64,000 nt of DNA from Methanosarcina mazei S-6. GTDB taxonomy: Archaea > Halobacteriota > Methanosarcinia > Methanosarcinales > Methanosarcinaceae. The DNA lies in the NCBI RefSeq assembly GCF_000970205.1, contig NZ_CP009512.1, forward strand, positions 868,001 to 932,000, given 5' to 3'. Made by a program: the position numbers and the translations under genes. The notes under the pieces were generated by a model. The model did no database searches. It was not told the origin of the DNA and was given only the letters and a program-made list of their open reading frames with translations. This document shows positions 23,581-47,247 of this stretch, piece after piece (position 1 is the first letter of the stretch; the number at the start of each line of letters is the position of its first letter).

Positions 23581-26500
23581 GCATAAGAAAACCTACACCT
23601 TTAATTTCAGCAGAGGAAATACATGAGGCAATAGAAAAAAATTTTGCTTTAAAGAACTCTGATTCATATTCTATTCTAGAAGAGTATTACTTACAGGTTG
23701 ATCCTTTCTTCCAAGAGTCAGGTGTAGCATATGGCCCTGCAAAAAGTATTGAATTTGGAAAAGTAGACCAGATGATGATCGGCCATATAAGAAATGGTGT
23801 ATGGGCAATAATAGAACTTAACGAAGCACTCAAAAAGCTTGGATTTCAAAATAGTTGTCTAAATAGAGATGCATTAAAAGAAACAGTGGCTCTTTTTGTT
23901 GCTCATGAGCTTCATAAACTAAACAATAAAGACTGGAAAGATCAATTTGACATTTCAGAAATAGAAGCTCTTGAATGGGCGAAAAAATTTGGACTTTTGG
24001 AATTTGCCCCTGGAATAAATGGAAGAGATTATCAGTCTGTAGCAGTTGCAAACCATCAAAAAACGGGCTATCATTCAAATCTTTCACCAAAATATACATT
24101 GTATAAACCGTGGACTTATCTCGCAGACACACTTGCAAGTATAGAAACCCCGCAAACTTCGGAATCAATGCAAAAACAGTTAGATAGTATCAATGAAGAA
24201 TTGGATTTTTATTACCATACTTTTGAGGAGTCCACAGGAATACTATCAAATCTTGTTAATAGTGGAGTTGCATCGTGGGCAGAAACCAAGGGTTTAATTC
24301 CCCTTTTAATTTTTGAAAAAGGAATCTTATATATTGGGAAATATGGTATTGAGTGTAAACTCAGCAACGTGCACGATATTGAAGAAATATATGATCAATT
24401 TAAGAACAAATTGGAAGAGGCACATCCGGCAATTTCAGACCCTCTGGAACTTTATAAAAGTAAAAATGTTGATGGGAGTAAAGGCTTATACAAATATGAT
24501 GATGTTTATTTCTTTTACTCTGGCTTAAAAAACGTATTAAGAGGCCTGATTACAGCTGCTGTTTTAGAAAAGGATAATAAAAATCGAAAAATCACTCTGG
24601 ACCTCAAAGACCATGCTATTTATGTAGACGGTAAAGAGCCGGATATGAAGTATCCACCAGCAACTGTAATTGATGTCCCTTCAAAATATATCTCAAGCAT
24701 CAAAGCTGATGACAAAGATACAAGTATTGAAGACATTTCAATTCTATGCAAAAATGAGGAGCGTAAAGAAGGAAAATACACTTTAATACCTGAATCAGTT
24801 GAAATCAATGGAAAAAAGCCAGAATGTTCTAAAATTGAGATCAATGGCACAGGGTTGATGACAAGTCAAGTAGGGTATAGACTTCATATTAAACAGGATT
24901 TTGATATTGACATTGGCTGGAGTTCTGAAATTATTTCATATTCTAGAGCTATTTCAGGCATAAGAATGCTATTTATTGACCCTCTTATTCGTCTGAAAGC
25001 TCTTGAATCAAAGAATTCTGTAATTGAGACATGTAAAATGTTTGGTGTAAATCCAGAACTTGCCCAAAATTTAGCAAAACATTCATTAAACAAAGATGAT
25101 CATCATGTTGTTGGGGGTTTCTGGAATTATTCATATGTTATAGCACATGATATCCTTGAGAGAAACATCGATGGTGTTTTGTTTAAGAATATCTCTACTG
25201 ATCTTGAAAAAGTTAGATATCTCGAAAAATTAGTATTTGAATATCTAAACGGAATACCTGCTGAAAAATTATATGAACTTGAATCCAATTATTCATACCC
25301 ATATAGAGATAAAATGCTCGTATGGATTTGTGAAAACCTTGATTTTAATAATTCAATGCTTTATGGAGCATTTAAGAATAGGTCCACTAAGTTTGAATCT
25401 TATTTGAAAGGTCATGGAGTATGTAAATTAACAAATGATACTCTTTATGACTTAAAATCATTAAATGCTCCATCTCAGGCAATGAGCATGCTGAAATATA
25501 CTTTCTCAAATCGTCTACCAATAGGTCCGCCTCAAACAAAGCCAAAACTTGAAGTTTCAGTGCCTGTAATGATTGAATTGGGTCTTAGGAGAATTGGCCA
25601 CTCTATAAAAAGTGGTGAGGATAAATTATACTATAAACTGATTCCAGACCACTTTTATACACCAATACTGAGTGAGATATTTTCTCAATTGCTTGGGATG
25701 TTTGATGAAAATACACAAACCAGTGTAGGAAGTATTTCAAAAAGTGTATTGTCATCGAACGAACCCAATTATCATCACCTAGCAAAACATCTTGTTTCGG
25801 ACCAAGGCCAAAAAATGTTAAGGTATACTGCAAAGGGTTTTAAAAGTCTGTTTTCAACTTATGATATCGTATTTAACAAATCAAGAGAAAACGATACCGA
25901 GTACTGGTTTATGGGTACTTACATAGGAATGATCTTAGCTGCAACAACAGGATGCCGTCTGGTAATCAGTGAAAACCCAATTTGTATGACCAAGGGTGAG
26001 GAATTCAAAGAACTCATAAAATTAGAATCACCATATGCACCTGTAAAAAAAATATTTGGAGACAGAATCCCCTTATCTAAACTTTATACTTCTATAGAAA
26101 TTGCTTCACTTGTTATCAATATGGGATACGAGTACAAATTAGACGACGGCTTAATGCCAAAATATCTTCAAAAAATTAGGAACCATATGTTTCCTGGGAG
26201 TTCTCTGCTAAAAGATATCCAGCGCCAGTATCAGGGTCATACTGGTATTTTTGTCAATAAAGCGCGTGGTTATTCCAAAAGTGGAGATGAAATTGTATAT
26301 GATGATTCAATAGGACTAATAGAACAAGCAATAAAATTAGACAAGTTTGGAGGAAATATGACTGCAGTAAGTTCGATTCATGAACTTGCAAATCTTGGAT
26401 TGAAAGTTGCAATTCCCAAGGGATATGAACCATACCGCATGGAAAAACTATTTCGTGAATCAGTGAAGGCAATTTTAGCTAAAAAACAAGATAAGTATGA

Positions 26501-26813
26501 AAAAGATGATTATGTTGATGCAGTTGCTGGTAGACTACTAAAAATGATGAGAAGAGCTGGAAATGACCAGTTCTATTATGTTTCAGGGCTTTATGATTCA
26601 CAAAAAACTCAGATGTTTGCAGAAGCGTTCGTAGATCTGGTATTTTATAAAATTGCTGACGGTCATCCAGGAAAGCTCAAACAAAAGGCGAATGATTTAT
26701 CTGATGGATTCTATGCAGCAACCCTATACCAGTGGGATGATGCATTTAAATCCACAAAAGAAGAAATTGAAAAAGCAAAATTAGAAAAGAAATTACAGGA
26801 GCCAAAATTATGA
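23577..26813 (+). CDS. cas10d: Type I-D CRISPR large subunit Cas10d (Csc3)
   Basis: A 1078-residue protein filling the cas10d position of a type I-D operon, between cas6 and csc2. An N-terminal HD-like nuclease region is indicated by H70 in MMIGHIRNG and by LFVAHELHKL, where the usual His-Asp pair reads H110-E111. The rest is the large Csc3 body, including LFDENTQTSVGSI and a helical C-terminal part (DDAFKSTKEEIEKAK). In this subtype Cas10d, not Cas3, carries the nuclease that cuts target DNA. The ATG overlaps the cas6 stop and follows GAGGTG. Length is normal for the family. Confidence 0.85.
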   Translation: MSIRKPTPLISAEEIHEAIEKNFALKNSDSYSILEEYYLQVDPFFQESGVAYGPAKSIEFGKVDQMMIGHIRNGVWAIIELNEALKKLGFQNSCLNRDALKETVALFVAHELHKLNNKDWKDQFDISEIEALEWAKKFGLLEFAPGINGRDYQSVAVANHQKTGYHSNLSPKYTLYKPWTYLADTLASIETPQTSESMQKQLDSINEELDFYYHTFEESTGILSNLVNSGVASWAETKGLIPLLIFEKGILYIGKYGIECKLSNVHDIEEIYDQFKNKLEEAHPAISDPLELYKSKNVDGSKGLYKYDDVYFFYSGLKNVLRGLITAAVLEKDNKNRKITLDLKDHAIYVDGKEPDMKYPPATVIDVPSKYISSIKADDKDTSIEDISILCKNEERKEGKYTLIPESVEINGKKPECSKIEINGTGLMTSQVGYRLHIKQDFDIDIGWSSEIISYSRAISGIRMLFIDPLIRLKALESKNSVIETCKMFGVNPELAQNLAKHSLNKDDHHVVGGFWNYSYVIAHDILERNIDGVLFKNISTDLEKVRYLEKLVFEYLNGIPAEKLYELESNYSYPYRDKMLVWICENLDFNNSMLYGAFKNRSTKFESYLKGHGVCKLTNDTLYDLKSLNAPSQAMSMLKYTFSNRLPIGPPQTKPKLEVSVPVMIELGLRRIGHSIKSGEDKLYYKLIPDHFYTPILSEIFSQLLGMFDENTQTSVGSISKSVLSSNEPNYHHLAKHLVSDQGQKMLRYTAKGFKSLFSTYDIVFNKSRENDTEYWFMGTYIGMILAATTGCRLVISENPICMTKGEEFKELIKLESPYAPVKKIFGDRIPLSKLYTSIEIASLVINMGYEYKLDDGLMPKYLQKIRNHMFPGSSLLKDIQRQYQGHTGIFVNKARGYSKSGDEIVYDDSIGLIEQAIKLDKFGGNMTAVSSIHELANLGLKVAIPKGYEPYRMEKLFRESVKAILAKKQDKYEKDDYVDAVAGRLLKMMRRAGNDQFYYVSGLYDSQKTQMFAEAFVDLVFYKIADGHPGKLKQKANDLSDGFYAATLYQWDDAFKSTKEEIEKAKLEKKLQEPKL

Positions 26814-27814
26814 GTGGAGAATATGGCATTACTGCATTTAAAAAAGATTTGGAGAATTATGTGGTAGAAACATTAGAAAAAAAGCCAAAAGAAAACTACG
26901 TAAATATACTGGTACTGAGAGAACTAAAAAGCGCAGCTCGTTTTACTACTGATGGAACCCAAGCAAACTCCGCAACCATAAGAATTGGAAACACCGAGGA
27001 AACTGTGGGGAAACTGTTTGGCCGAAAACAGGTCGCAAGTGATAGAAGAAAAGCTAAAGCACTTCAGCGTACTCTTATCACAGAGGAAATGAAAAAAGCT
27101 GTAAAAGATTGGAACGGCTGCACTATGAAAGTAAATGAGATGTGCCAGAAGTGTCCGGAATGCGCTTTATTTGGAAGTGCGGCTTCTGAAGAAAGTGTTA
27201 GTATAACTTCAAGGGTAATGTATGATGAAGCTTATACTATCAGGGCAGTAAGTGCAATTGTAGAAGAATTTTTTCAGAATGCTCCTGGTGACGATTATAC
27301 AAAGGAACCAACTTCTGCAATTCGTGAACCAGATTTCTTTAAGGAGGGCACTCTGTTTCCCTGTGCAGTTACATTGAAGGATGCAACTATTGAAGAAGTA
27401 ATGTTTTTCTTGAATGTAACAGATCGAAATTCACGATACGGTGCTACAGGTACTCGTTTTGGAAAAGTCCAAAATCACATTCTTGGAGTTTATGCAAGTC
27501 ATAGAGAGGGCCCTTCAAGCTTAGAGATAACCAGAGAGATTGCACTTAAGCTTGCAGGAAGAAAAGCTGAACAGAATGGTACGAAAATTGAAGAAGAACT
27601 CAAAAATGTGATGTATAGTGATACTTTAGATACTAATGAAATAAAAGGTCTCAGTATTAAGGTATACGAAGAACTGTCAACGAAACATAGAATAGAATGT
27701 AATAAAGTTGGAGAGGCTGAAGTTTCGAAGGTACTCAGCGAATTAACAGATGATGTTGTGAAAGAGGCACTCACAGCACAAATTGGTAAGATAAAAACAT
27801 TTGTAAACGCTTAA
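26810..27814 (+). CDS. csc2: Type I-D backbone subunit Csc2 (Cas7)
   Basis: A 334-residue Cas7-family backbone protein that would line the crRNA in the interference complex. Family features include a cysteine-rich insertion, MCQKCPECALFGS, probably zinc-binding, and DRNSRYGATGTRFGKVQNHI in the middle. Its ATG overlaps the cas10d TGA, and CAGGAG precedes it, so translation is coupled. csc1 follows after a nine-base gap. Codon use matches the rest of the operon. Confidence 0.88.
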   Translation: MSGEYGITAFKKDLENYVVETLEKKPKENYVNILVLRELKSAARFTTDGTQANSATIRIGNTEETVGKLFGRKQVASDRRKAKALQRTLITEEMKKAVKDWNGCTMKVNEMCQKCPECALFGSAASEESVSITSRVMYDEAYTIRAVSAIVEEFFQNAPGDDYTKEPTSAIREPDFFKEGTLFPCAVTLKDATIEEVMFFLNVTDRNSRYGATGTRFGKVQNHILGVYASHREGPSSLEITREIALKLAGRKAEQNGTKIEEELKNVMYSDTLDTNEIKGLSIKVYEELSTKHRIECNKVGEAEVSKVLSELTDDVVKEALTAQIGKIKTFVNA

Positions 27815-27823
27815 AGGGTCACA

Positions 27824-28591
27824 ATGTCCAGAAATGCTCAAGCAAATTTAGTAGGTAGTCTTCAAAAGCTACCTTCCCAAGTTCAGGTTCGAGCGTTTAA
27901 GGGAATAATAGAACTGATGAGTGAACTGTTCTTTGCTTCCCTGGAACCTGGAGATAATTATACCACTGAACCTGTAATATTAAACACTGCACTTTACTAT
28001 GCCCTTGGTTATGCAAAAGGAAATTATATAAATCGTCCTATAAAAAAAGGTAAGGGTTCAGCAAAGCAAAATCCAGATTATATTGAAGACACCGAAGAAC
28101 TCGTTAATAGTGTATATGTTACACCTGCTAAGCTGATAAACTTTGCAGAACTTACTACTGAAATTTATAATTCACGTTCAGATGATTATGTCCAATCAAA
28201 CGTGCCTACTAAAATTGATAGTGATGCCAATATCCCTAGGTACGGTGCGAGAAAACAAATTCAACCCGGTGCAAGATTTTTATTTTACGTACTAACGTTT
28301 GATGGCACTGAACCGGATATGCCTCCATATATCAGGTTAGGCAAAAAACGTTGCAAAGCCTTAGTTGAATGGAGTGAGGTTGATGTTTCAGTTTCAAATG
28401 GAACTTACACAACTACACACCCAATTTTAGCTGAGGATACTAATTTGATACCATTGGGAGATATTTCTTTTAAGAGAATGCAGCCGTTTGATATAATTAA
28501 GAAATCTAGGTTCTCAGGGGATTACTTAAAAATAGATAGTAATGAAATACTCCCATTTGAAGTGCGCTTCTTAAGGAGGATAAGGAATTGA
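27824..28591 (+). CDS. csc1: Type I-D subunit Csc1 (Cas5)
   Basis: A 255-residue Cas5-family protein expected to cap the crRNA 5' handle and start the Cas7 filament. The call rests on position (directly after csc2), length and Csc1-like stretches such as NTALYYALGYAKGNY, VTPAKLINFAE and RKQIQPGARFLFYVL. The start ATG at 27824 follows AGGGT. Its last codons overlap the TTG start of cas3'. No interruption is visible. Confidence 0.82.
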   Translation: MSRNAQANLVGSLQKLPSQVQVRAFKGIIELMSELFFASLEPGDNYTTEPVILNTALYYALGYAKGNYINRPIKKGKGSAKQNPDYIEDTEELVNSVYVTPAKLINFAELTTEIYNSRSDDYVQSNVPTKIDSDANIPRYGARKQIQPGARFLFYVLTFDGTEPDMPPYIRLGKKRCKALVEWSEVDVSVSNGTYTTTHPILAEDTNLIPLGDISFKRMQPFDIIKKSRFSGDYLKIDSNEILPFEVRFLRRIRN

Positions 28592-29439
28592 TTGTTGAGG
28601 AGCTCAGTATTCCGAGGTATAATGCGGAACCTCTATACAATGATCGTTATCCTTATGCTCATCAAATAATTGCAAGAGATTCAATTCGCAATTTTGATGA
28701 ATTTTTTCTTTTCCTTACATCTCCTACTGGGTCTGGAAAAACAGATTCATGGGCAGTACCCTCATTAAATGGAAATGATTTGGGAGTAGTTGTAGCTTTA
28801 TATCCTACAAATGCACTTGCAAAAGATCAGTATTTGTCCATAAATAATCTGAAAAAATCATTGAATTCGAATAAAAGAATTGAGTTTGTGACAGCTGAAA
28901 CCCTTGGGCTGAAACAGGAAAAGTATTCGTACAGAATAACAAAAGGTGAAATTTTAGAAGACATGGTTCGTAAAATGGCACTCGATGGTGGAGGCATAAT
29001 TGTTACAAATCCTGATATATTTGTTTATGCACTTAAAGGATATTTTTTCAATGAGTATCTGAAATCTGTATTCAAAAATCATATAAATACTGTTGTTTTT
29101 GATGAATTTCATTTATATGATTTAAAGCAGTCAGATATTATTTTGTTTCTTTTGCACGATATTTTGATCACCGAGGATACTGCACTGAGAAAATTTGTAT
29201 TTCTCAGTGCAACACCGAATGAAAATATTTCCTATAAAATAAAAAAGGTGATTGGTGGCAATTTCATTGACTCTGCTCAAACCAATATCAATAGTTTAAT
29301 TATTGATGAGCGTCCCATCATGCCAGAAGTTGAGCTTGAGTTTAAACATGCACCGCGTTTTATGGCTGGAGAATTTTTATTAAAGGATTTAGAGTGGATA
29401 AAGGATTTTAAGGGCAATGAAAGGCTGGCGATTATACTA

Positions 29440-30641
29440 GTGTCGCGTCAATCCTCAATAGTCGGATAAAGACGTGACAATTTTATCCTTGCATCATCTG
29501 TTGTAAATTGCCATTTAACCTTTGAATTTTTGTTGTTTCTGTAATTTTGCCATGCCAAAACTTCTTTTCTGACAAACTCGATGTTATCCATTCTCCTTTT
29601 TAAACATTGACCTGTAAGTACATTCAGTTCAATCTCTGCCATGTTCAACCAGCTTCCATGTTTTGGCGTGTAGACGAACTCAAATCTGTCCCATAGCGCC
29701 TTTGCTTTTGGTGGTGGAAATGTTTCGTAGAGAGATCCAGGTATGTGCGTGTTTAGATTGTCCATTACTAACGTAATTTTATCTGCATTTTCATGTTGAA
29801 CTTCTATTTCTTCGAGAAAATAAGCCCAATCTCTCTTTGTTTTTCTTTCAGTGATCTTTACCATTCTTTTCCCTGTCAACGGTTCACAGGCAAGGAATAT
29901 ATTGCACATTCCATTTCGCTTGTATTCATAATCGTACTTTTCTGGCTTCCCTGTTGAGCAGGGGATAGGGATCCGGGTTTCTGCAATCAATTGTTTTGGG
30001 GATTCGTCCATACACACAACAGGATTTCGTGGATCAAATGGACGTTTATAAACGTCCAGAACCATTTCCATATTCGCAACAAAGCTACTGTTTTGTTCTG
30101 GAGGAATTACCCATTGTTTCCTTTGCCAGGGTTTGATTTCGTTTTTTTAAAGTACGGCGTACTGTTTCGTGAGAAATTTCCTCGAAATAACCAAGTTCTA
30201 CAGCCTTATCGGCTAATAATCTTAACGACCATCTTGCAAAACCTTCAGGGGGTTGACTGCAACTAAGGGCGACTAAATGGGCTTCAAGATCACCATCAAC
30301 TTTTTTATTATAAATGCGCTCGCTTTCTTTCCCGTTAAGGGCAACTTCAAGACCTTCTTCAACAAATCTCTTCTTAACACGGTCAATTTTTTTCATACTA
30401 ATATTCAGGACACGTGAGATTTCTTCATTGGTTGAATGGCTAACATTCAATTCACTTTTATCGCAATTAAGCAAAATCAGAGCATTGAGAATTTGTTGAG
30501 AGTTATGTTTTCCCTTTGAAGCAAGTTCACAAAGAGATCTACGTTCATCTTCGGTAAGTGTCACAGTATATTTAATCATGAATGATACTTATGAAGATCA
30601 TTCAATATAACGCTTAAGACTTCCCATCGGTGACACGACAC
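29440..30641 (-). mobile_element. IS630-family insertion element inside cas3'
   Basis: A 1202-bp element. Left end GTGTCGCGTCA and right end TGACACGACAC are inverted repeats, and both are flanked by TA (29438-29439 and 30642-30643), the target duplication typical of IS630/mariner elements. It carries a transposase on the strand opposite to cas3'. The exactness of both ends and the clean reading frame of the split gene indicate a recent insertion. Confidence 0.92.
29448..30579 (-). CDS. IS630-family transposase in two overlapping frames
   Basis: The N-terminal frame (30579-30085) holds helix-turn-helix domains (TNEEISRVLNISMKKIDRV, then GFARWSLRLLADKA). The second (about 30140-29448) holds the DDE catalytic core: VVCMDESPKQL, VMDNLNTHIPG and HGSWLNMAEIELNVL. 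Reading shifts between frames at a run of seven As (about 30148), after which the reading LKKNEIKPWQRKQW continues to the second part. Such an A-run is a classic slippage site, so a full-length product may come from programmed frameshifting. An inactivating one-base change is the alternative. The short product alone would lack catalytic residues. Confidence 0.82.
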
Positions 30642-31851
30642 TAGATAGTGCTCATGAAGTTGCAGTTCTAGCCGAAGCCCTTCGAAATCAAACTAACTGG
30701 AAGATTTGTGAAGTTAGTGGTTTTAGAAAGGACTCAATGGAAGATTCATTTGATATTCTTGTAGGGAACAAAGCCATTGAAGTTGGAATTGATTTTAAGG
30801 GAGAGTCTGCAATATCAAGATTGATATTTTCAGCACACAGTATAAGTGAGTTTTTACAACGTTTCGGTAGACTCAGAAATCCAATTAGTGGGGTAAAATA
30901 TAGGTCAGTTTGTTTTGCAGCTTCTGAGGTAGTAAATCACTTCGGCAGTTTTGAGAACTTATCAAGAGCCGAATTAGAAGAAAACATAAAATCTTCAATG
31001 CATGATCCAAAAATTATTGAGAACTTTAGATGGAGGTATGGTTACCTTGAAGCTTATGAGTATATATACAAAAATGCTTTTGGAATTGGTGTAAAAGAGG
31101 CAAGAATTAGTCAAAATGGATGTCAATTTCAACCACAGAAAGGAGGTTTACCATCAGATAAGAACGAAAATTATTTCCGCCAAGGTCTTGAGTTGATTAA
31201 AGAACATTTTTTTATTCATACAGGTCGGACTTCTCACGAGATTCTAGAATCTGTAGGATTTCTTGAGAAAACGACTAAATCTGAAATTCTGGATATTATC
31301 GAAGAACTCGGGAGTTTTAGAGGCAGCTCTCTAGACATAGCGTACTATGATCCTGAAAATGATCAATTTGGTCTTTACGATGTCTTTTTTCTTTTAAGAT
31401 GGGCTGAAATGGATATTCTCCCAAAAAAACAATTCAAGCGATCTGTCCCTGATAAATACCACAAAAAAATAGATGATGTCTCTGAACGAGTTGCAGGCTA
31501 TGTTATTATTAAGAATATTCTTGAAAAACCAAGATATGTGAAAATTGCTGGTAGAAACCTAAGTCAAATAGATTTTGGGGAATCTGAAAGGAAACCTGAA
31601 AAAGCTTATGGATTGCTGCCGGTTGTTGGAAAAAACAACTCTGAAGATTCTTTAGACATGTCTACAATAGTGAACAAAATTAAGTCAAAAGGATTTTTTT
31701 GTAGATACATGTCAAATACCTCTAAAATTTCAAAGAATTATTACAATATTGACGACTACACTGTACTTTTAAACTATAAGGATGGATGCTTGGCAATTGG
31801 TCTTGATGCGATTTATGTAGACTGCGTTATTCATAATTTACTTTCTACAAA

Positions 31852-32421
31852 GTGAGTGATTCTATGGATGAAGACTCTTTGGTCAATGTTTCCGACCTTA
31901 ACCAGTACCTTTACTGTGCTAGACGCCTTTATTATCTCATGTTTTATGATACACAGGAAATAAATTTTTACCTTGCAGATGGCCGTTCAAAACATAAAAA
32001 CAAAGGTAGGAGAGGCGGTTGGTATAAGGAAATTTACCTTAGATCTGAAAAACTCCAATTACATGGTAAAATTGACTTACTGGAAGGAAAAACAACTTTA
32101 ACTCCAGTAGAAAGTAAGCATGGCGATTCCTACTATGAAAATGATGAGGTTCAGTTGGCTGCTTACTGTATGCTCTTGGAAGATTATCTGGAAGAGCCAG
32201 TAACTTTTGGATATTTACATCTTTTTGGCACTAACGAACGCTATGCAATTCAGATAACAGATTGGCACAGAGAAGCGGTTCTGGATACAATTTCAGCAAT
32301 CCAGAATATGAAATTAAATAATATTCCTGATTTTGCAGATAATTTGAATAAGTGTAAAAAGTGCAGTGTGATTCAGTACTGCATGCCATTTGAAACAAAA
32401 ATACTGGAGAAGATAAAGTGA
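31852..32421 (+). CDS. cas4: CRISPR adaptation nuclease Cas4
   Basis: A 189-residue RecB-family exonuclease. An N-terminal cysteine lies in LNQYLYCARRLYY, the nuclease core is in KIDLLEGKTTLTPVESKHG (D and E-x-K), then DEVQLAAYCMLLE, and a C-terminal cysteine cluster KCKKCSVIQYCMP completes the iron-sulfur site. Cas4 helps Cas1-Cas2 choose protospacers beside a PAM. The GTG start at 31852 overlaps the cas3' stop, and the stop overlaps the cas1 start, so the genes form one operon. An internal promoter is not obvious, so the IS element upstream may reduce its expression. Confidence 0.9.
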   Translation: MSDSMDEDSLVNVSDLNQYLYCARRLYYLMFYDTQEINFYLADGRSKHKNKGRRGGWYKEIYLRSEKLQLHGKIDLLEGKTTLTPVESKHGDSYYENDEVQLAAYCMLLEDYLEEPVTFGYLHLFGTNERYAIQITDWHREAVLDTISAIQNMKLNNIPDFADNLNKCKKCSVIQYCMPFETKILEKIK

Positions 32422-33407
32422 AAGCGAGTGAGGGGATTCTGGACGACGATGTAATCTATGTGACAAAGCAGGGGTCAACTGTTGGAATTGACGGAGGGCG
32501 CATTTCTGTTTACCAGAAAGAAGAGGGAGAACTGGCTTCCTATCCAATAGGAAAGGTAAATACAATCAATATTTTCGGGAATGTTAATTTCACCACTCCT
32601 TTTGTTTCCCAGGCAAACGAACACGGGGTTACACTGAATTACTTTAATTTTTACGGGAAATACAGGGGCAGCTTTATACCTGAGCGTAATACCATTGCTG
32701 AAGTTCGAAGAAAGCAATACGCACTTACAGATTTCCAGAGCCTTGCAATCTCCCAGAGGATAATATCCGGAAAAATCCGAAATTCAAGAACTCTTTTGAG
32801 TCGGAAAGGTATCAAAGAACTTAAAATATTAGATGAGATCGAATCAAAAACTGCTGAAGTTAAGACTTCTGATGAACTGAGAGGCTACGAAGGTGAAGCT
32901 GCTGAATTCTATTTTAGGCATCTTAACAATTGCCTGATCGACGGCTGGACTTTTGAGAAAAGAACGAAAAGACCTCCTGAAGACCATATCAATGCTCTCA
33001 TGTCACTCACTTATACAATGATGAAAAATGAGGTTTTGAGTGCACTTAGACAGTACAATCTCGATCCTTACCTGGGAATTTTTCACGCTGACAGACATGG
33101 AAGGCCGGCTCTTGCACTCGATTTGATGGAGGAGTTTAGACCCGTTTTCTGTGATGCATTTGTGTTAAGGTTAATTAACCGTAAGGAATTGACACATGAT
33201 GATTTCCAGGTGGATAACCATCTGAAAGAACATCCGTTTAAAACATATCTCGCTAAGTTTGATGAATATATGCAAGAAGAATTTATGCATCCTCATTTTA
33301 AGTATCAGGTTTCCCGAAGAAAAGCGGTCAGGATGCAGGCAATATTACTACGAAAAGCTATCACAAACGAACTTCCTATGTATTATCCTCTGGTGTTTAA
33401 AAGATGA
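32418..33407 (+). CDS. cas1: CRISPR integrase Cas1
   Basis: A 329-residue Cas1. Catalytic positions are visible: the glutamate in YEGEAAEFYFRHL, the histidine in GIFHADRHGRPALALDLMEEFRP and the acidic pair near its end. An N-terminal beta-rich domain precedes the helical catalytic domain. With Cas2 it integrates new spacers at the leader end of the array that begins 380 bases downstream. The GTG start overlaps the cas4 stop and the stop overlaps the cas2 ATG. Full length. Confidence 0.93.
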   Translation: MKASEGILDDDVIYVTKQGSTVGIDGGRISVYQKEEGELASYPIGKVNTINIFGNVNFTTPFVSQANEHGVTLNYFNFYGKYRGSFIPERNTIAEVRRKQYALTDFQSLAISQRIISGKIRNSRTLLSRKGIKELKILDEIESKTAEVKTSDELRGYEGEAAEFYFRHLNNCLIDGWTFEKRTKRPPEDHINALMSLTYTMMKNEVLSALRQYNLDPYLGIFHADRHGRPALALDLMEEFRPVFCDAFVLRLINRKELTHDDFQVDNHLKEHPFKTYLAKFDEYMQEEFMHPHFKYQVSRRKAVRMQAILLRKAITNELPMYYPLVFKR

Positions 33408-39185: not shown

Positions 39186-39275
39186 TAAAACAAGGATTGA
39201 AACTCTCCGAAACTCAGATATTTTTGAAATTCGGAGATATTCCCGAACAAGATCCACTAAAACAAGGATTGAAAC
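39186..39275 (+). CRISPR. Remnant of a second CRISPR array: truncated repeat, spacer, full repeat
   Basis: TAAAACAAGGATTGAAAC (to 39203) is the right half of a repeat whose left half is replaced by the end of the 976-bp element. A 35-base spacer (39204-39238) follows, then a full 37-base repeat at 39239-39275 (ATTCCCGAACAAGATCCACT, ending GGATTGAAAC). This repeat type is unlike the type I-D one except for the shared ATTGAAAC handle. It resembles the ATTCGCGAGCAAGATCC repeats I recall from Methanosarcina mazei. Confidence 0.85.
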
Positions 39276-39333
39276 CAGTTTTCCGGTGATGCCTTTCAGG
39301 CCTGAATAGAATCAACATTAGCAAACTTTAATG

Positions 39334-39728
39334 TATATCCCACATTCCGCGGTATTTTTTTCAAAAATCAATGATTTTCCCGACAGCGTTTTTCAAACAG
39401 AGTAAAGTAATTTTGGCCCATGATGGAACTTGGCGAATATTGAATGATATCGTTTTTTGGTCTCTAAATACACCATATTATTACTTCTGGGCAATGTCGC
39501 GAATTTGCTGTAATTCCAAGTTAATTTTTAGGAGACTGTATGCAAAACCAATCTATCGGTCTCGAATTTTTGACTCAAAAACTTCTTAAATTTGTAATTT
39601 TACAGAAAAATTGACACACTACCTGCTTTTGCCTACTGCATAAAAGTCCAATAAATCCACTTTTAATTGAAAATCGATAGCAAGAACAATTGTGAATATT
39701 CTAAACTTTACTGCGGAATGTGGGTATA
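39334..39728. mobile_element. Small inverted-repeat element (MITE-like), 395 bp
   Basis: Left end TATATCCCACATTCCGCGGT at 39334-39353 and right end TACTGCGGAATGTGGGTATA at 39709-39728 are inverted copies with two or three differences. The interior has no credible gene; a 72-codon ORF there shows no family features. It could be a non-autonomous element or the shell of a decayed insertion sequence. I could not define a target duplication. Confidence 0.55.
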
Positions 39729-39760
39729 TTTATTTATTCTATTATAACATATTATAATAC

Positions 39761-40012
39761 ATGTCTACTATAGCTATAGATCCGGATGTAAAGGAATCAC
39801 TTAAAGAGTTAAAGTTAGCTCCCGAAGAGTCTTATAATTCAGTAGTTAAGAGACTTATTGGGGAAGTTAAAAAGAAAGAAGATTACAGTCCTATGTTTCC
39901 AAAAGAAGAAAAACAAGGACATAAGGAATCTCATATAAATGATTTTGATGCCTGGTTAGAAAAGAAGCTGGTAGAAGATAAAAACATTTTAGATGCACTT
40001 GGAAGAAAGTGA
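39761..40012 (+). CDS. Antitoxin of a Doc-type toxin-antitoxin pair
   Basis: An 83-residue protein opening with STIAIDPDVKESLKELKLAPEESYNSVVKRLIGE, a ribbon-helix-helix/VapB-like layout seen in many archaeal antitoxins, followed by a charged tail ending AWLEKKLVEDKNILDALGRK. It overlaps the downstream Doc-like gene by about 20 bases, the usual antitoxin-first arrangement. The start ATG lies just after the small inverted-repeat element, whose AT-rich edge (39730-39757) probably contains the promoter. Confidence 0.7.
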   Translation: MSTIAIDPDVKESLKELKLAPEESYNSVVKRLIGEVKKKEDYSPMFPKEEKQGHKESHINDFDAWLEKKLVEDKNILDALGRK

Positions 40013-40403
40013 TGTTTTGATCAGCTTAATTGAGATTTTGAAAATTCATCAAAAGGTTATAGATTACGATAAATTTAAAGATCCGGATGATTATACACCC
40101 GCAATACGTTCTTTAGCTACTTTAGAATTAATGTTTGAATATTTGATAAAAGAATCCAATACTATTTTCGAAAATGCCGCTGTAATAGTCTACACTATTG
40201 TTGCAAAACATCCGTTTTTCAATGGAAATAAAAGAACTGGTTATGAAGCCATGAATTTTATTATTGAAGATGGAGGATACAGGTTTACGTCTACAGATGA
40301 AGAGATGATAGAATTCATAATTAGAGTGGCTACAACAGAAAATGAGATGTCAATTGAAGAAATAAAAGAATGGATAATTCGACATACGGAAAAAATACTA
40401 TAA
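39993..40403 (+). CDS. doc: Doc/Fic-family toxin
   Basis: A 136-residue Fic-fold toxin of the Doc type. The signature is VAKHPFFNGNKRTGYEAMNFI, close to the Doc motif HxFx(D/N)GNKR. Doc kinases phosphorylate elongation factor Tu in bacteria; related Fic enzymes add AMP. The histidine, asparagine and arginine needed are all present, so the toxin looks intact. A TTG at 40017 behind GAAAGTGAT is an alternative start and would remove the overlap with the antitoxin. The gene ends 36 bases before a solo CRISPR repeat. Confidence 0.82.
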   Translation: MHLEESDVLISLIEILKIHQKVIDYDKFKDPDDYTPAIRSLATLELMFEYLIKESNTIFENAAVIVYTIVAKHPFFNGNKRTGYEAMNFIIEDGGYRFTSTDEEMIEFIIRVATTENEMSIEEIKEWIIRHTEKIL

Positions 40404-40439
40404 CCTCGAATCAAAGAGATTTACAGGGTACAAGTAATA

Positions 40440-40476
40440 ATTCGCGAGCAAGATCCACTAAAATAAGGATTGAAAC
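40440..40476 (+). CRISPR. Solo repeat of the second CRISPR type
   Basis: A single 37-base repeat (ATTCGCGAGCAAGATCCACT, ending AAATAAGGATTGAAAC) with no partner within spacer distance. The 36 bases between the Doc stop codon and this repeat are spacer-sized, so a spacer may survive there. Confidence 0.85.
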
Positions 40477-40753
40477 GTGACCTGAATCTGATAGTTGCTC
40501 CAAAACGGCTCTTCAATGTTTCGAATGGTTAACTTAAATTTTCCTGGTATAGAAGTAGCATGCACAAAATATAGGAACAGATGTTGTTGAAAATCACATT
40601 CAAGCTTGATGTTCTCAATTTGATCTGAACATATTTTAACCAGGCAATTATTTTCAACCCACACAAAACAGTGAAGAGCCACAAACCTACCAGGGCAACT
40701 ACAAAAAAGGAAATAATGGCGATAATAATGGTTTTTGTTTTTGGTTTATTCAA
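40477..40753 (-). pseudogene. Broken gene for a membrane-anchored or exported small protein
   Basis: Minus-strand reading begins with TTG at 40753 and gives MNKPKTKTIIIAIISFFVVALVGLW as an N-terminal membrane segment. It then loses frame near 40672; the adjoining frame continues with a protein-like CFVWVENNCLVKICSDQIE and PGKFKLTIRNIEEPFWS. A one-base change explains the split. The reading then runs into the CRISPR repeat, so the 3' end is missing. Family not recognised. Confidence 0.45.
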
Positions 40754-40825
40754 TTGTTAATTTTTTATAGATCTCAACCGCTTTTTGAAATAAAACACGT
40801 TCAGTCCGACAACGCAGACGAGCGT

Positions 40826-41479
40826 CTAGGCGATCAGGAGTTCGGTCTGCTCCCTCGAAAAAAGTCCCACGAGAATCCCGACAAAGGCCCACCAGTGGGT
40901 GGCGAACACCACGGCGTTGCGCTTGCTTTGATAGAGTGCGTAGCCCGCAGAGAGCGCCGCGAGAAGCACGAGGAGCATTTGAAGATAGATTCCGAGCTGG
41001 GAGCTACTCTGGATGCCAAAGGAAAAAGCATACACGCCGATATTAGCTAGCACCGCAACGCTTGACCACCCCAGATACATCCCGACTCCGCCCTGCAGGA
41101 ATAGCTTCTCCTGGATATTCGCAAAACCCTGTTCCAATAGTTGGGGAAACGCCTTGAGCAAAGCGAAGTACATAAAGAGGAAAATGAGCACCGTCAACAG
41201 CAGCAATTCCCGCTCAGCCGCCATGAGCCAGAGGGTAAAACAGACGTATACCGACGAGAGCCAGAGATACACCGGCCTTGAAAATGTCCGTGTGCCAAAG
41301 AGATGCAGCAGCGCGTAGATGCTTGAAAACATGGTTATCACTCCCCAAATGGCAAAAGTATACCCGGCTGGGGTGATGAGCAGTTCATTGAAATTACTGC
41401 CTCCGCTAAAAGACGAGAAAAAAATGCTGAAAATCTGCGAAACCGCTGTGACAAAAAAGATGATTTTATAGATTCGCAT
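40826..41479 (-). CDS. TspO/MBR-like (tryptophan-rich sensory) membrane protein
   Basis: A 217-residue membrane protein with six or so hydrophobic segments. The segment LLITPAGYTFAIWGVIT resembles the conserved region of the TspO family, which binds porphyrins and other hydrophobic ligands; the later WSSVAVLANIGVYAF and ATHWWAFVGILVG segments fit as well. It is longer than classical TspO. The gene is visibly richer in G and C than its neighbours and sits alone between CRISPR fragments, suggesting horizontal acquisition from a different lineage. Role unknown. Confidence 0.62.
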   Translation of the reverse strand: MRIYKIIFFVTAVSQIFSIFFSSFSGGSNFNELLITPAGYTFAIWGVITMFSSIYALLHLFGTRTFSRPVYLWLSSVYVCFTLWLMAAERELLLLTVLIFLFMYFALLKAFPQLLEQGFANIQEKLFLQGGVGMYLGWSSVAVLANIGVYAFSFGIQSSSQLGIYLQMLLVLLAALSAGYALYQSKRNAVVFATHWWAFVGILVGLFSREQTELLIA

Positions 41480-41511
41480 ATTGTTATGGTTGGATGTTCA
41501 TAGCATTTTAA

Positions 41512-41735
41512 TTATTCTGCCCAAAGTTTGGCGATGTTCTTTTGAGTTTTTTGCCCGTAAATTTCAATCAGCATTTTGGCGTACTCGACGAGCATCCGCC
41601 CGGCTTCGATATCCTCCCCAATTTTTTTAGGATGGTGAGAGGCTGGAGAGGGATTTCATATTCATTAATCTTATTTGGCGAAATATTACCTTGGTCTCCG
41701 CCATCTGAAGCTACCTGAAAATAGTCGTAAATTCA
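41512..41735 (-). pseudogene. 3' remnant of a type I restriction specificity gene (hsdS)
   Basis: On the minus strand this reads YFQVASDGGDQGNIS, NKINEYEIPLQPL and, after a one-base frame change near 41640, PKKIGEDIEAG, AKMLIEIYGQKTQKNIAKLW and a stop. The middle piece matches the usual end of a target-recognition domain (ipLPpL), and the tail matches the terminal coiled coil of HsdS. No hsdM or hsdR is nearby. It is a relic in a defence-rich stretch. Confidence 0.5.
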
Positions 41736-41838
41736 TTAGAAAATAATATGACTTCAAAAAACTTTTGAAGTTTTTGTTCATTTGGTCTTACGAGACCAAC
41801 GCGCTGATTGAGAAGCAAACTATTAATTTGAGAAACAG

Positions 41839-41946
41839 ATTCGAGAGCATATCCACTAAAACAAGGATTGAAACTTGAGAGGATTCAAGCTCTCGCAGAT
41901 GGACGGGTTATTCGCGAGCAAAATCCATTAAAACAAGGATTGAAAC
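41839..41946 (+). CRISPR. Second-type CRISPR remnant: two repeats and one spacer
   Basis: A 36-base repeat (41839-41874, ATTCGAGAGCATATCCACT...) with several changes, a 35-base spacer (41875-41909) and a 37-base repeat (41910-41946, ATTCGCGAGCAAAATCCATT...). Same orientation as the other remnants. No leader or cas gene is nearby. Confidence 0.85.
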
Positions 41947-42082: not shown

Positions 42083-42433
42083 TTACTTCTTGTAACCAAA
42101 TACTTTATCGTATTTTTTATGATCGATTATATCAATCACTATTACGAGAGTTTCAACGCCCGAATTACCAGCTGTAAGTGTGTAAAGCATTCTCCAGAAG
42201 CCTGGGAGTTCCACTCTAAACAGGTTATTTACTCCATATTTGGTTTTATATTCTGAAGGAATTAATCTTTTAGCAACTGGATTTCCATAATGAACATCGT
42301 TTTTTATTAACTCTATTTTCTGATGAAAAGCATTAAGAATTGTCTCTTCCTGCTTTGAGTCCGAAGCCTTACTTATCAGATATTCGTATGCCTCCTCAGC
42401 TTCGGGAGTTAATCTTACACTTACACGCTCCAT
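42083..42433 (-). CDS. RelE/ParE-superfamily toxin
   Basis: A protein of about 116 residues with the RelE/ParE fold. The C-terminal strand pattern is clear: NNLFRVELPGFWRMLYTL, then VETLVIVIDIIDHKKYDKVFGYKK. Toxins of this group cut mRNA on the ribosome or poison gyrase; the basic and tyrosine residues near the end suit the mRNA-cutting type. I start at ATG 42433, preceded by GTGA; a GTG at 42442 is also in frame. It follows the 42446-42724 gene by a few bases on the same strand, giving an antitoxin-toxin pair. Confidence 0.72.
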   Translation of the reverse strand: MERVSVRLTPEAEEAYEYLISKASDSKQEETILNAFHQKIELIKNDVHYGNPVAKRLIPSEYKTKYGVNNLFRVELPGFWRMLYTLTAGNSGVETLVIVIDIIDHKKYDKVFGYKK

Positions 42434-42445
42434 GCTATTCACGTT

Positions 42446-42724
42446 TTATAGCTCGCGTCCGTAAATCGCAACATTCCTTAAATTATGATTTGTGTTGTGA
42501 ATCCAGGTTATCCCTCTTAACCCAACAGCTATTTTATTACTTTTTTCCAGGTATTCCAAAATAGTCATTAAAGTATTGTGGTTTACCTGCCGAGGAAGCG
42601 CTTTTTTTAGTTCCGGAATAGTTATAACACTATTTGGGCTGTTTTGTATAGCATCTTCTACCATAATAATAGTGTTAAGAGTTGGAGAAGGTTTTATCTT
42701 ATCAGAATTTAATGCCTCTGCCAT
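42446..42724 (-). CDS. Probable helix-turn-helix antitoxin
   Basis: A 92-residue protein that looks like a small winged-helix domain: TIIMVEDAIQNSPNSVITIPELKKALPRQVNHNTLMTILEYLEKSNKIAVGLRGITWI. This fits a DNA-binding antitoxin that represses its own operon. It lies immediately upstream of the RelE-like gene and is probably co-transcribed. I know of similar pairs in methanogens but cannot name the family. ATG at 42724. Confidence 0.65.
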   Translation of the reverse strand: MAEALNSDKIKPSPTLNTIIMVEDAIQNSPNSVITIPELKKALPRQVNHNTLMTILEYLEKSNKIAVGLRGITWIHNTNHNLRNVAIYGREL

Positions 42725-42945: not shown

Positions 42946-43062
42946 ATTCCCGATCAAGATCCACAAAAACAAGGATTGAAACTGTAATCTGTTCCGTGAA
43001 TCAATACAAACTGCTGAGACTTTTTATTCGCGAGCAAGATCCACTAAAACAAGGATTGAAAC
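42946..43062 (+). CRISPR. Second-type CRISPR remnant: two repeats and one spacer
   Basis: Repeats at 42946-42982 (ATTCCCGATCAAGATCCAC...) and 43026-43062 (ATTCGCGAGCAAGATCCACT...) enclose a 43-base spacer, longer than the others. The second matches what looks like the consensus. The end of the RNB gene lies 42 bases further on, which leaves room for one more spacer. Confidence 0.87.
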
Positions 43063-43104: not shown

Positions 43105-44904
43105 TCAACTTCCTGTCACTAAAGTGTATATCATTGCTCTGGCTGCTAGCCTTTTGGCCCTTTGCTTTTTTCCTGCCTGGCCGGTGCTGGTCGAGGAGCC
43201 AAAAGTACAGGTACAGGTGAAGATTGGCCTGTTGGTTGCGCCTTCCATCTCAAAGGAATAAGCTGGCAAGGGAAGTTTTTTTGCCTGACAGTATTCTTGC
43301 AGGGCAAAGATCGGGTCTTTTGACGTGTTAATTGTTGGGTCTTTTGACGCATTAATTGTTATTTCTTCCTGACTGGCTGGCGAATCTTCTATCCTGATCT
43401 TCAAGTTCGGAGCAGGTAAGCCCAGAATAGTTGCTAGAAGGCCTGCGGACGCTTGCTGCATGGCACCTTTTTTTGTCAGGTCTTCGTATGCAGCGGACCG
43501 GTACTCTCTGTCACCGATTCTAATTGCACTTATGGCGGTGAATGCAGGCAGGTTGCTTCGCGTAGTTTCTGTCACTTCGTATACTGGCATCTGCCAGCCC
43601 GATATATGTTGTGCGATGTCGAAGACCGAGACGGCTTTCTGAGGCGCGGTTGCGATATCCTCCAGCAGCGCTATTTTAAGCTCAGTCCATTTTTCGCCAT
43701 CAGGAGCTTGCAGGAGTACCAGCCCTGCGCAGATAACCGGCAGCTTGGCAAGGCGTTTCAGAAAGGCATCGAAATAAGCCTCGGGGCAGTCTTTACCCTC
43801 CCGGATCAGTACTTTGGTGATGCGCTCGAAGTCTGTATCGTTTGCATCTTCGATCCGATTACCCCGGATAGCCAACTCAGCTTCTTTATATGCCTTTTCC
43901 TTCATGTATTCGCTTTTAGCCCTGTCGTTTTCGATGTGCCTCATGTTGATATGCGATGCAATTGCCTGAATCTCTTCTTTAGAATGGGGCAAGGGCTCTT
44001 TTCGGATGTATGCACGGATCTGCTGGTGATTCACGAGATCAGCATACCTTCGGATGGGTGAGGTGAAGTGTGTATACGCTCCGAGGTTCAGTCCGAAATG
44101 GCCCATGATTACGGGGCCGTATTCCGCTCTATTGAGCATCATGTACGTGGTATGCCTGACGGCAGCTATGTTTACCTCAGGAATAAAAGCCATGCTTTCG
44201 AGCAACTTCAGCAAGTTCTCCCGCTCAGGGGTGGCACTCCGGGCTGTATGGTTACGGAAAAGAATAGGGATGTCATTTCTGACCGCATACTCTGCTATGG
44301 CCATGTTAGCGAGAATCATCAGCTCCTGGATGATAACGTAGCCTATGGTATCCCCTCTGCATCTCAACTGCCGCACCGACCCTTCTTCACTCGTCACCAG
44401 CCCCCTCCCCAGGTCGTAGAATGCGAGCGCTCCATGGCTACGGCGTTGCATTAAAAGGCCGCTTGTGAGCTGGCTTATGAGCTTGATGAGAGCATGCTGT
44501 GGGTGCTCTCTATCAGAGAGAATACGGGGGACGTCAGAGAATGCTAGCCGGGCTTCGCTTGTCATTATAGTCCGTAAAAGCCCTGTTTCGAGGATCGACA
44601 AATCTCTATTGAGGATAATATCCACGGCAAGGACATACTTCTCCTCTCCCGGCCATAGGGATAGCTTCCCGTCTGCGAGCCGCCTGGGTAACATCGGGCT
44701 GTTGCCGTTTGCATAATACCTGGTCTCGACCCGAGACATTGCAAATCTATCAAGCTCTGAATTTTTCGGAACGACCTTTGCGACGTCCGCAATCATGACC
44801 ACGACGTGCCAGCCCCCATTTTCCGTGACTTCCACCCAGATTGCATCATCCATGTCCCGTGTTGTCACGTCATCAATCGTAATACCTCTGAGCATATCCA
44901 GCAT
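43105..44904 (-). CDS. RNB-domain (RNase II/R-like) 3'-5' exonuclease with two C-terminal dsRNA-binding domains
   Basis: A protein of about 599 residues. The RNB catalytic domain starts at once: TIDDVTTRDMDDAI carries four aspartates (residues 11, 17, 19, 20 from the start used) with the spacing of the RNase II active site, and HFTSPIRRYADLVNHQ lies near residue 285. There is no cold-shock domain in front and no S1 domain behind. Instead two dsRNA-binding folds follow: one with PVYEVTETTR, PAFTAISAIR and TKKGAMQQASAGLL, and a terminal one with DPIFALQEYCQ, PAYSFEMEG and KKQRAKRLAARA, separated by a short SKDPTIN repeat. The gene is GC-rich. ATG 44904 lies about 30 bases past a TATA-like tract; an upstream TTG at 44922 is possible. 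Confidence 0.8.
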   Translation of the reverse strand: MLDMLRGITIDDVTTRDMDDAIWVEVTENGGWHVVVMIADVAKVVPKNSELDRFAMSRVETRYYANGNSPMLPRRLADGKLSLWPGEEKYVLAVDIILNRDLSILETGLLRTIMTSEARLAFSDVPRILSDREHPQHALIKLISQLTSGLLMQRRSHGALAFYDLGRGLVTSEEGSVRQLRCRGDTIGYVIIQELMILANMAIAEYAVRNDIPILFRNHTARSATPERENLLKLLESMAFIPEVNIAAVRHTTYMMLNRAEYGPVIMGHFGLNLGAYTHFTSPIRRYADLVNHQQIRAYIRKEPLPHSKEEIQAIASHINMRHIENDRAKSEYMKEKAYKEAELAIRGNRIEDANDTDFERITKVLIREGKDCPEAYFDAFLKRLAKLPVICAGLVLLQAPDGEKWTELKIALLEDIATAPQKAVSVFDIAQHISGWQMPVYEVTETTRSNLPAFTAISAIRIGDREYRSAAYEDLTKKGAMQQASAGLLATILGLPAPNLKIRIEDSPASQEEITINASKDPTINTSKDPIFALQEYCQAKKLPLPAYSFEMEGATNRPIFTCTCTFGSSTSTGQAGKKQRAKRLAARAMIYTLVTGS

Positions 44905-45192
44905 AATACCACTTAGGTGCAAAATTTGGTATGCTTTCCTTATATGTATATTGGTAGGTAAAAAAGTGGTAAGGGGTTCTTATTTTTATGAAAAATTGTT
45001 TCACAGATTTTGCTCATATTTATGTGAAGACGCGTAAAATCACTGAGCCTTTAGCTCACGGGATATAAGCTTCAACTTAAACCCTGATTCCGTATATAAT
45101 ATTCTGCTGGTTCCTTTGACATTTCCTATGCTAGACGAAAAATGTCCATCACTCAATAACGTATTTTCTCCCCAATAGAGCCTGTAGACTTA

Positions 45193-45536: not shown

Positions 45537-45573
45537 TTTCGCGAGCAAGATCCATTAAAACAAGGATTGAAAG
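45537..45573 (+). CRISPR. Solo repeat of the second CRISPR type, degenerate end
   Basis: A 37-base repeat starting TTTCGCGAGCAAGATCCATT and ending GGATTGAAAG, with both terminal bases altered. It is the last copy found in the window, 6.3 kb from the first. Terminal degeneration is what the distal end of an array usually shows. Confidence 0.8.
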
Positions 45574-45816: not shown

Positions 45817-47247
45817 CTGACTGCAAAAAGAATATTCTCCATTTTATTTACAGTAGCCATTGCACTTCAGGTTATTGCCGTCGGTGCGGTTGCTGCAGCT
45901 TTTTATGCTGATAACGGGCCTCTGGCGGTTTCAGATGATGACACCGCGCCTGCTCCTGAACCTTCTTCAGAACCTGCGCCCGAGACAGATCCTGAGCCGA
46001 CTCTCGAACCAGATCCCGAACCGGCTCCTGAGCAAGACCCCGCTCCAGACCCTGAGCCGGCTCCCACCCCGGATCCCGAGCCCACTCCGGCTCCTGAACC
46101 CACGCCTGAGCCGACCCCCACTCCGGATCCCGAGCCTACTCCCGAGCCGACCCCTACTCCGGATCCTGAGCCCACTCCGGATCCCGAGCCTACTCCCGAG
46201 CCGACCCCTACTCCGGATCCCGAGCCCACTCCTACTCCGGACCCTGAACCCACTCCTACTCCGGACCCTGAACCTACTCCCACTCCGGGTCCTGAGCCCA
46301 CTCCCACTCCCGAACCAACCCCTACACCAACTCCCGAACCAACCCCTACACCAACTCCTACACCAACTCCTACACCAACTCCTACACCAACTCCTACACC
46401 AACCCCTACACCAACCCCCACGCCAACCCCCACGCCAACCCCTATACCAACTCCCACCCCGGATCCTAGTCCCTCTCTGACACCTGATGACAATAAAAGC
46501 AGCAGTGGTGGTAGCAGTGGAGGTAGTAGTGGAGGTAGTAGTGGTGGAAGCAGCGGAGGTAGCAGCGGTGGAGGCGGAGGCGGCGTCTCTCCGGAACCTC
46601 CGAGAAATGTTGAAGCAAAAGAGATTTCCCGGGCAACCATTTCAGGCGGTGAAACTGTCAGGTTTGAATTTAAAAACAATGCAACCTGTGTTGTTTATGT
46701 TGCCTTCCATGCAGTTGAAAACGCAGGCAGGACCACAACCATTGTTGAGCAGTTAAAGGAAAAATCCGTCCTTGTATCGGAACTGCCTGATGACGAAGTT
46801 TACAAATCCTTTAATGTCTGGGTAGGAAACGCAGGATATTCGACCTCAAACAAAATAGATAACCGTGCCCTGGGCTTCAGGGTAAATAAAGAATGGGTCC
46901 GGGAAATGGACATAGTCCCGGCTTCCATAACGCTTAACAGATATGAGAAAAAGGTCTGGGTTCCCCTATCCACCGAACTGACAGGAGAGAGCGATGAATA
47001 TCTCTACTTCACTTCAGAAGTTCCAGGGTATGCTTCGTTTGTGATAACGGGCAATACCACCCAGGAGGTACTGGAAGAAGAGAGCGATCAGGTCCCCTCT
47101 GAAAGCAGGTCCACTGACGGATTTCAACTGGGGGATTTCGCAAAAAAAGCCGGGTCTGATAAGAACAGAAATACCATACTGAGCATCGTGATAGTGGTTG
47201 TAGCCCTATCGGTAGTGGTTGTTCTGTTAAAAGGCATGAAAGAATAA
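45817..47247 (+). CDS. Proline-rich surface protein with PGF-pre-PGF domain
   Basis: A continuous 477-codon frame. No ATG, GTG or TTG lies between the upstream in-frame stop (45775) and the signal sequence, so the best start is CTG at 45817, a few bases after AGGGGTG. It encodes a hydrophobic export signal ([18 protein letters not shown]), a long Pro-Thr/Glu/Asp stalk (about residues 45-220), a Ser-Gly linker (229-260), a PGF-pre-PGF domain (about 265-415: [39 protein letters not shown]) and a C-terminal membrane helix before a short basic tail. It is probably a cell-surface adhesin or S-layer-associated protein. Confidence 0.75.

Follow-up and report, generated by a model that had tools for sequence, protein, structure and literature searches.

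A gene for a predicted RNB exoribonuclease with double-stranded RNA-binding domains (dsRBDs) lies between CRISPR repeats in the genome of Methanosarcina mazei S-6, which raises the question of whether the enzyme serves the CRISPR locus or only resides there. The gene was analyzed together with the window, that is, the whole stretch of 64,000 nucleotides of M. mazei S-6 DNA around it. The features of the locus are listed in Table 1.

Table 1. Positions in the window of the RNB-dsRBD gene, the domains of its product, and the surrounding repeats and gene pairs
Feature	Position	Strand	Basis
RNB and tandem dsRBD exoribonuclease gene (predicted), 599 aa from ATG	43105..44904	-	Open reading frame, Pfam, alignment, AlphaFold model
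RNB catalytic domain, aa 6-301	44002..44889	-	PF00773 E 7e-66; invariant columns; Foldseek RNase R E 3e-24
Helical region between RNB and dsRBDs, aa about 309-419	43648..43980	-	AlphaFold model, good confidence, no family match
dsRBD1, aa 422-494, alpha-beta-beta-beta-alpha	43423..43641	-	AlphaFold; Foldseek tandem dsRBDs; alignment with bacterial relatives
dsRBD2, aa 531-596, KKxxAK-type motif GKKQRAKRLAA	43117..43314	-	Pfam dsrm; model
TATA-like element, TATACATATAAGG context, about 40 bp before ATG	44936..44951	-	Conserved across 10 carriers; farther upstream sequence diverges
CRISPR-DR7 repeat, 3' side, about 42 bp from stop codon	43026..43062	+	Rfam RF01320 E 5e-9
CRISPR-DR7 repeat, 80 bp from the 43026 repeat	42946..42982	+	Rfam
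CRISPR-DR7 repeat, 5' side of gene	45537..45573	+	Rfam
Scattered DR7 repeats of the decayed array (39239, 40440, 41839, 41910)	39239..41946	+	Rfam; synteny with intact arrays
Phd-like/Doc pair between scattered repeats	39761..40403	+	Doc TIGR01550 E 5e-46; repeat-flanked in several genomes
HTH and HigB-like pair between scattered repeats	42083..42724	-	Function by appearance only; repeat-flanked also in G007

Architecture and maintenance of the gene

The gene starts at an ATG at 44904 and stops at 43105-43107. The mechanical open reading frame begins at an alternative upstream TTG at 44922; the ATG start is conserved and common to the orthologues. The preliminary description had recognized an RNB nuclease with the aspartate spacing of RNase II/R, and the Pfam search bore this out: the RNB match (E 6.7e-66) scored 223.2 bits against a curated cut-off of 29.3, which places the protein in the RNB superfamily. 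The spacing TIDD-x5-DxDD is kept in the window protein (D11, D17, D19, and D20), and these four residues, together with S282, P283, R285, R286, and D289, which include the TSPxRRxxDL region, were invariant across 22 aligned proteins.

The usual RNB exonuclease grips single-stranded RNA by means of cold-shock and S1 domains. No cold-shock domain was matched in the window protein by Pfam or in the AlphaFold model, where the RNB domain starts already at residue 6, and no S1 domain was found by Pfam, the model, or Foldseek; the C-terminus consists of two dsRBDs instead, as had been proposed. The Pfam dsrm match (E 1.3e-14, 54.9 bits, cut-off 23) had its best stretch in dsRBD2, the only clear pass in the window protein. 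The dsRBD1 alone was not clear in Pfam, and its support came from the AlphaFold fold, from Foldseek matches to tandem dsRBDs, and from the alignment with relatives, RNB and dsrm both being matched in 22 of the 22 aligned proteins. The AlphaFold model, which was built from 14 sequences, had a mean pLDDT of 84.9 and showed an RNB core, a helical region, and two alpha-beta-beta-beta-alpha modules joined by a linker of low confidence. Foldseek matched the core to RNase R/II and the tail to the tandem dsRBDs of TRBP, Loqs, R2D2, and DRB4. The domain search and structure prediction suggested earlier as a check on the dsRBDs supported them, and the profile search did not fail them. The domains and catalytic residues are established, both dsRBD folds by the model. 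It should be added that dsRBDs may also mediate protein-protein contacts.

The possibility of an ordinary RNase R whose S1 domain has diverged was ruled out by the fold, by the tree described below, and by the NCBIfam equivalog scores, which were 220.9 for RNase_R (cut-off 597.85) and 214.8 for 3_prime_RNase (cut-off 368.6). In the linker between the dsRBDs, a 24-bp tandem duplication at 43313-43360 adds 8 residues (INASKDPT), and the window copy alone among ten aligned orthologues has this insertion.

The GC content of the RNB-dsRBD gene was 50.6% (GC3 0.56), compared with 30-44% in six other measured window genes, in agreement with the earlier remark that it is GC-rich unlike its neighbours. 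When ten Methanosarcina orthologues were compared in all pairs, dN/dS had a mean of 0.17 and a range of 0.12-0.26; measured against the window gene it was low in every part of the protein and lowest in dsRBD2 (0.07-0.13). The gene is maintained under purifying selection, and a pseudogene was ruled out by the dN/dS of 0.17 and by the open frame in the carriers. It is the sole RNB gene in the window genome, and its product is the sole Pfam-detectable dsRBD protein there. Beyond the 5'-side repeat, the stretch 45860-46679 is GC-rich and of low complexity, with many 12-bp tandem units; it probably encodes a proline-rich repeat of a surface protein.

The CRISPR array around the gene

The repeats that had been noticed on both sides of the gene proved to be CRISPR-DR7, at 42946 and 43026 on the 3' side and at 45537 on the 5' side, and seven scattered copies are present in the window between 39239 and 45573. 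Chance repeats were ruled out by Rfam E values down to 3e-9 and by the occurrence of repeats at the same place in other genomes, since relatives carry real arrays of the same repeat at the corresponding place. Genome G012 has three repeats before the RNB-dsRBD gene and an array of 58 after it, and G003 has two before and 121 after. Repeats were also found on both sides of the gene in G010, G020, G025, G007, and G004, those on the 3' side in G007 and G004 being at least 2 kb away at the cut-off used. The exceptions were G009, without a repeat within 3 kb, and G024, with one repeat only, on the 5' side. A repeat at about the place of the 43026 copy was present in most carriers, and some of these copies were degenerate. 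In G012, G003, G004, and G020, cas4-cas2-cas1 lies next to the far end of the intact array, while in G010 and G025 a few repeats are followed by cas3-cas5 genes, and in G010 also by cas7-cas8b.

The position of the gene, at the array end beside an anchor cupin gene, is conserved in most carriers, and this location is established. It is presumably the leader-distal, decaying end of the array in most of them, because the layout of array and cas genes, together with the degeneration of repeats near the gene, would place the leader at the other end. The RNB-dsRBD gene runs opposite to the presumed crRNA strand, and read-through from either side would give RNA complementary to the repeats or to the mRNA. 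In the window, this end has decayed to isolated repeats, among which other cargo genes lie. These are the phd-doc pair and the HTH/HigB-like pair, of which the HTH protein gave a weak AbiEi match and its partner no NCBIfam match; the latter pair was repeat-flanked in two genomes. Phd-doc and HTH/HigB-like pairs were seen amid scattered repeats at the old array end in the window and in G007, G020, G004, G005, G030, and G028, with two phd-doc copies in G007. The dS of the window doc gene to those of G020 and G007 was 0.24-0.26, far below that of the anchor genes, and this divergence therefore suggests a recent movement of phd-doc.

The window genome also contains an intact array of the same DR7 repeat, with about 73 repeats, 0.7 Mb away and beside a Csx11-type III module. 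This module, at 1.606-1.640 Mb of the window genome (G000, loci L159/L160), encodes Csx11 (Cas10-like), Cmr1, and Cmr4. An I-B Cas7 orthologue was not detected in the window genome. In the window itself, a type I-D CRISPR-Cas operon occupies 22708-33407 (Cas6-like, Csc3, Csc2, Csc1, Cas3', Cas4-like, and Cas1d), an IS630-like insertion at about 29448-30579 interrupts its Cas3' gene, and an array built on a different repeat extends to about 38.2 kb.

Distribution and origin

The gene was found in 11 of the 31 Methanosarcina genomes, some of them fragmented, at 78-85% identity; these and the following presence counts take related genomes as independent and have descriptive value only. No remnants of it were found in the non-carrier Methanosarcina genomes, which also have the syntenic anchor cupin gene, with solitary repeats or phd-doc pairs nearby. 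Outside Methanosarcina, no carrier was found among 150 genomes of the order, and the other strong matches in the phylum sample aligned over the catalytic part only, both searches being samples. The statement that dsRBDs are rare in archaea was partly right. In Methanosarcina the protein is nearly the sole one: a dsRBD protein was detected in 11 of 31 genomes, exactly the 11 carriers, one of which has an extra one. In the phylum, dsRBDs occurred in 51 of the 295 genomes sampled, mostly as part of proteins of about 250 aa.

Relatives with the same layout were found on plasmids of Streptomyces, Rhodococcus, Gordonia, Mycolicibacterium, Mycobacterium, Pseudomonas, Variovorax, Methylorubrum, and Acaryochloris. 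The closest relatives, with 36-42% identity, were on contigs of a viral collection, most of them 137-536 kb long, and some of these adjoin dNMP kinase and gp88-type genes. In the RNB-domain tree, the dsRBD-type enzymes of plasmids, phage contigs, and Methanosarcina formed one clade (100/99) that includes neither ordinary RNase R nor the haloarchaeal RNase R; a common origin of the Methanosarcina enzymes with the latter was ruled out (p-AU 4e-5). Membership in this foreign clade is established, as the preliminary description had anticipated in assuming a foreign origin. The search for the donor by phylogeny succeeded as far as the clade, within which the tree singled out no exact sister of Methanosarcina. 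The source of the gene was likely a bacterial mobile element, a megaplasmid or a huge phage, because relatives of the whole layout occur on megaplasmids and huge phage contigs and the haloarchaeal sister was rejected; source and direction of transfer are read here from a sparse sample, in which bacterial chromosomes were scanned with a single protein, giving mostly close relatives.

The dS from the window copy was 0.4-0.8 for the RNB-dsRBD gene and 0.7-2.6 for the anchor cupin gene. The lower value of the former leaves room for exchange between Methanosarcina species or codon constraint, so that simple vertical descent is not proven.

No conserved partner gene was found across the bacterial relatives. 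PAPS-reductase-family (DndC-like) genes were located close upstream of the RNB-dsRBD gene on two plasmids only, one of Streptomyces (L038, 4491-6038) and one of Pseudomonas (L041, 7121-7921). On phage contig L050, a cupin homologue (11696-12412) with 42% identity to the Methanosarcina anchor cupin lies about 4 kb from the closest RNB-dsRBD relative. A meaningful link between this cupin and the one near the gene in Methanosarcina was rejected, and the resemblance was judged a coincidence, present in 1 of 10 phage contigs.

Function of the enzyme and comparison with known systems

With two dsRBDs joined to an RNB core that lacks the domains for channelling single-stranded RNA, the protein is best interpreted as an exonuclease that acts on duplex or structured RNA, and the activity on structured or double-stranded RNA proposed earlier is plausible from this architecture. 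We consider it probable, at roughly 65%, that the gene encodes a working, horizontally acquired 3'-to-5' RNB exoribonuclease for double-stranded or strongly structured RNA, for which the array is a residence. We infer the enzymatic activity, the preference for dsRNA, the cargo status, and the leader position. The two C-terminal dsRBDs would hold an RNA duplex, the RNB core, lacking the cold-shock/S1 channel, would take the 3' end and peel the duplex open, and the two-metal aspartate cluster would hydrolyse the RNA. The gene may have reached an ancestor or an early member of Methanosarcina from a megaplasmid or huge phage, and would then have become fixed among the repeats of the presumed leader-distal array end, which is seldom renewed and has also gathered phd-doc and HTH/HigB-like pairs. 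The array looks like a place of residence and not a demonstrated partner, cargo being the simpler reading. In the searched literature, which most subscription papers lie outside, we found no biochemical data on any member of the dsRBD-type RNB clade, and nothing relevant on RNB combined with dsRBD or on genes lodged in CRISPR arrays.

An anti-defence or antiviral RNase from mobile elements, which would destroy structured host defence RNAs or duplexes and was kept by Methanosarcina as a defence gene, is unlikely. Such a role would be consistent with the closest relatives lying on viral contigs and many others on large plasmids, with the zone that the gene shares with the toxin-antitoxin pair phd-doc, and with its product being the only dsRBD protein detected in the window genome. 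However, the protein matched none of the PADLOC families (0), its relatives lack a conserved partner gene, the PAPS-reductase-family neighbours being confined to two plasmids, and large phages carry RNases for ordinary RNA turnover too.

We also doubt that the protein is a general RNA-turnover enzyme which supplements the archaeal exosome for structured RNA and has no link to defence. RNase R decays structured RNA in bacteria, and Haloferax, which is without an exosome, has an RNB enzyme (PMC12320835; PMC10470531). These precedents, and the lack of any second RNB gene in the genome, would suit such a function, but its patchy spread in one genus (11/31) is ill suited to a core housekeeping task, and the distribution of its relatives on mobile elements is unlike that of core RNase R.

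The array-end location in most carriers of this one genus, with repeats on both sides, and the antisense orientation would also suit a CRISPR accessory nuclease that trims crRNAs or clears duplexes of pre-crRNA and antisense RNA at the array end. A precedent comes from Staphylococcus epidermidis, where RNase R carries out the final step of crRNA maturation for a type III-A system (PMC9762709), and in the window genome the intact array of the same repeat adjoins the Csx11-type III module. We regard this role as quite improbable: the gene is missing from 20 of the 31 Methanosarcina genomes, yet the repeat is present in 30 of 31, and the window genome keeps the gene although no I-B Cas7 orthologue was found there. 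The presence of the gene tracks neither Csm1, above the cut-off in 3 genomes of which 1 is a carrier, nor the Csx11-type protein, present in 6 genomes with 2 carriers, and a type III link was ruled out on this lack of correlation. No CRISPR-Cas was seen beside the bacterial and phage relatives in the records examined; a crude repeat scan of loci L038-L059 gave one signal, in L051, 3.7 kb from the gene. The antiviral or crRNA-related role offered in the preliminary description thus gained no support, with no PADLOC match, no tracking of type III, and relatives beside no CRISPR-Cas. Its strongest form, in which a dsRNA-specific exoribonuclease has become a permanent component of the CRISPR loci of a single genus and, encoded antisense at the far array end, removes duplexes of pre-crRNA and antisense repeat RNA (or of invaders), is very improbable; if true, the array, the antisense transcript, and the nuclease would form one self-regulating unit.

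With the array read as a residence, foreign genes can find shelter among the repeats at the old end of a CRISPR array across the divergence of a genus. In Methanosarcina, the RNB-dsRBD protein would be almost the sole dedicated dsRNA-binding enzyme. In the clade as a whole, over phages, megaplasmids, and one archaeal genus, tandem dsRBDs replace the domains that grip single-stranded RNA, which predicts a duplex-RNA exonuclease that is easily assayed.

Among known systems, the nearest in layout are the plasmid proteins annotated as 'RNB domain-containing ribonuclease' of actinobacteria, proteobacteria, and Acaryochloris, which belong to the same clade and likewise consist of RNB, a helical region, and 2-3 dsRBDs. 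They differ by their 27-32% identity, by a third dsRBD in some, by an N-terminal extension in Acaryochloris, and by lying outside CRISPR arrays in the records examined; they are annotated but uncharacterized. The haloarchaeal (Haloferax-type) RNase R is similarly archaeal, with RNB and few accessory domains, but it forms a separate clade, aligns over the RNB part only, and ends in a short S1-like stretch (by eye) and not in dsRBDs. Bacterial RNase R and RNase II have the RNB core and the catalytic aspartate cluster in common with the window protein, and 3'-to-5' two-metal hydrolysis is predicted likewise, whereas the window protein lacks their HTH, cold-shock, and S1 domains and has two dsRBDs. 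RNase III resembles it in the order of a catalytic domain followed by a C-terminal dsRBD and in the predicted action on dsRNA; however, RNase III is an endonuclease of unrelated fold, while the catalytic part of the window protein is a predicted RNB exonuclease.
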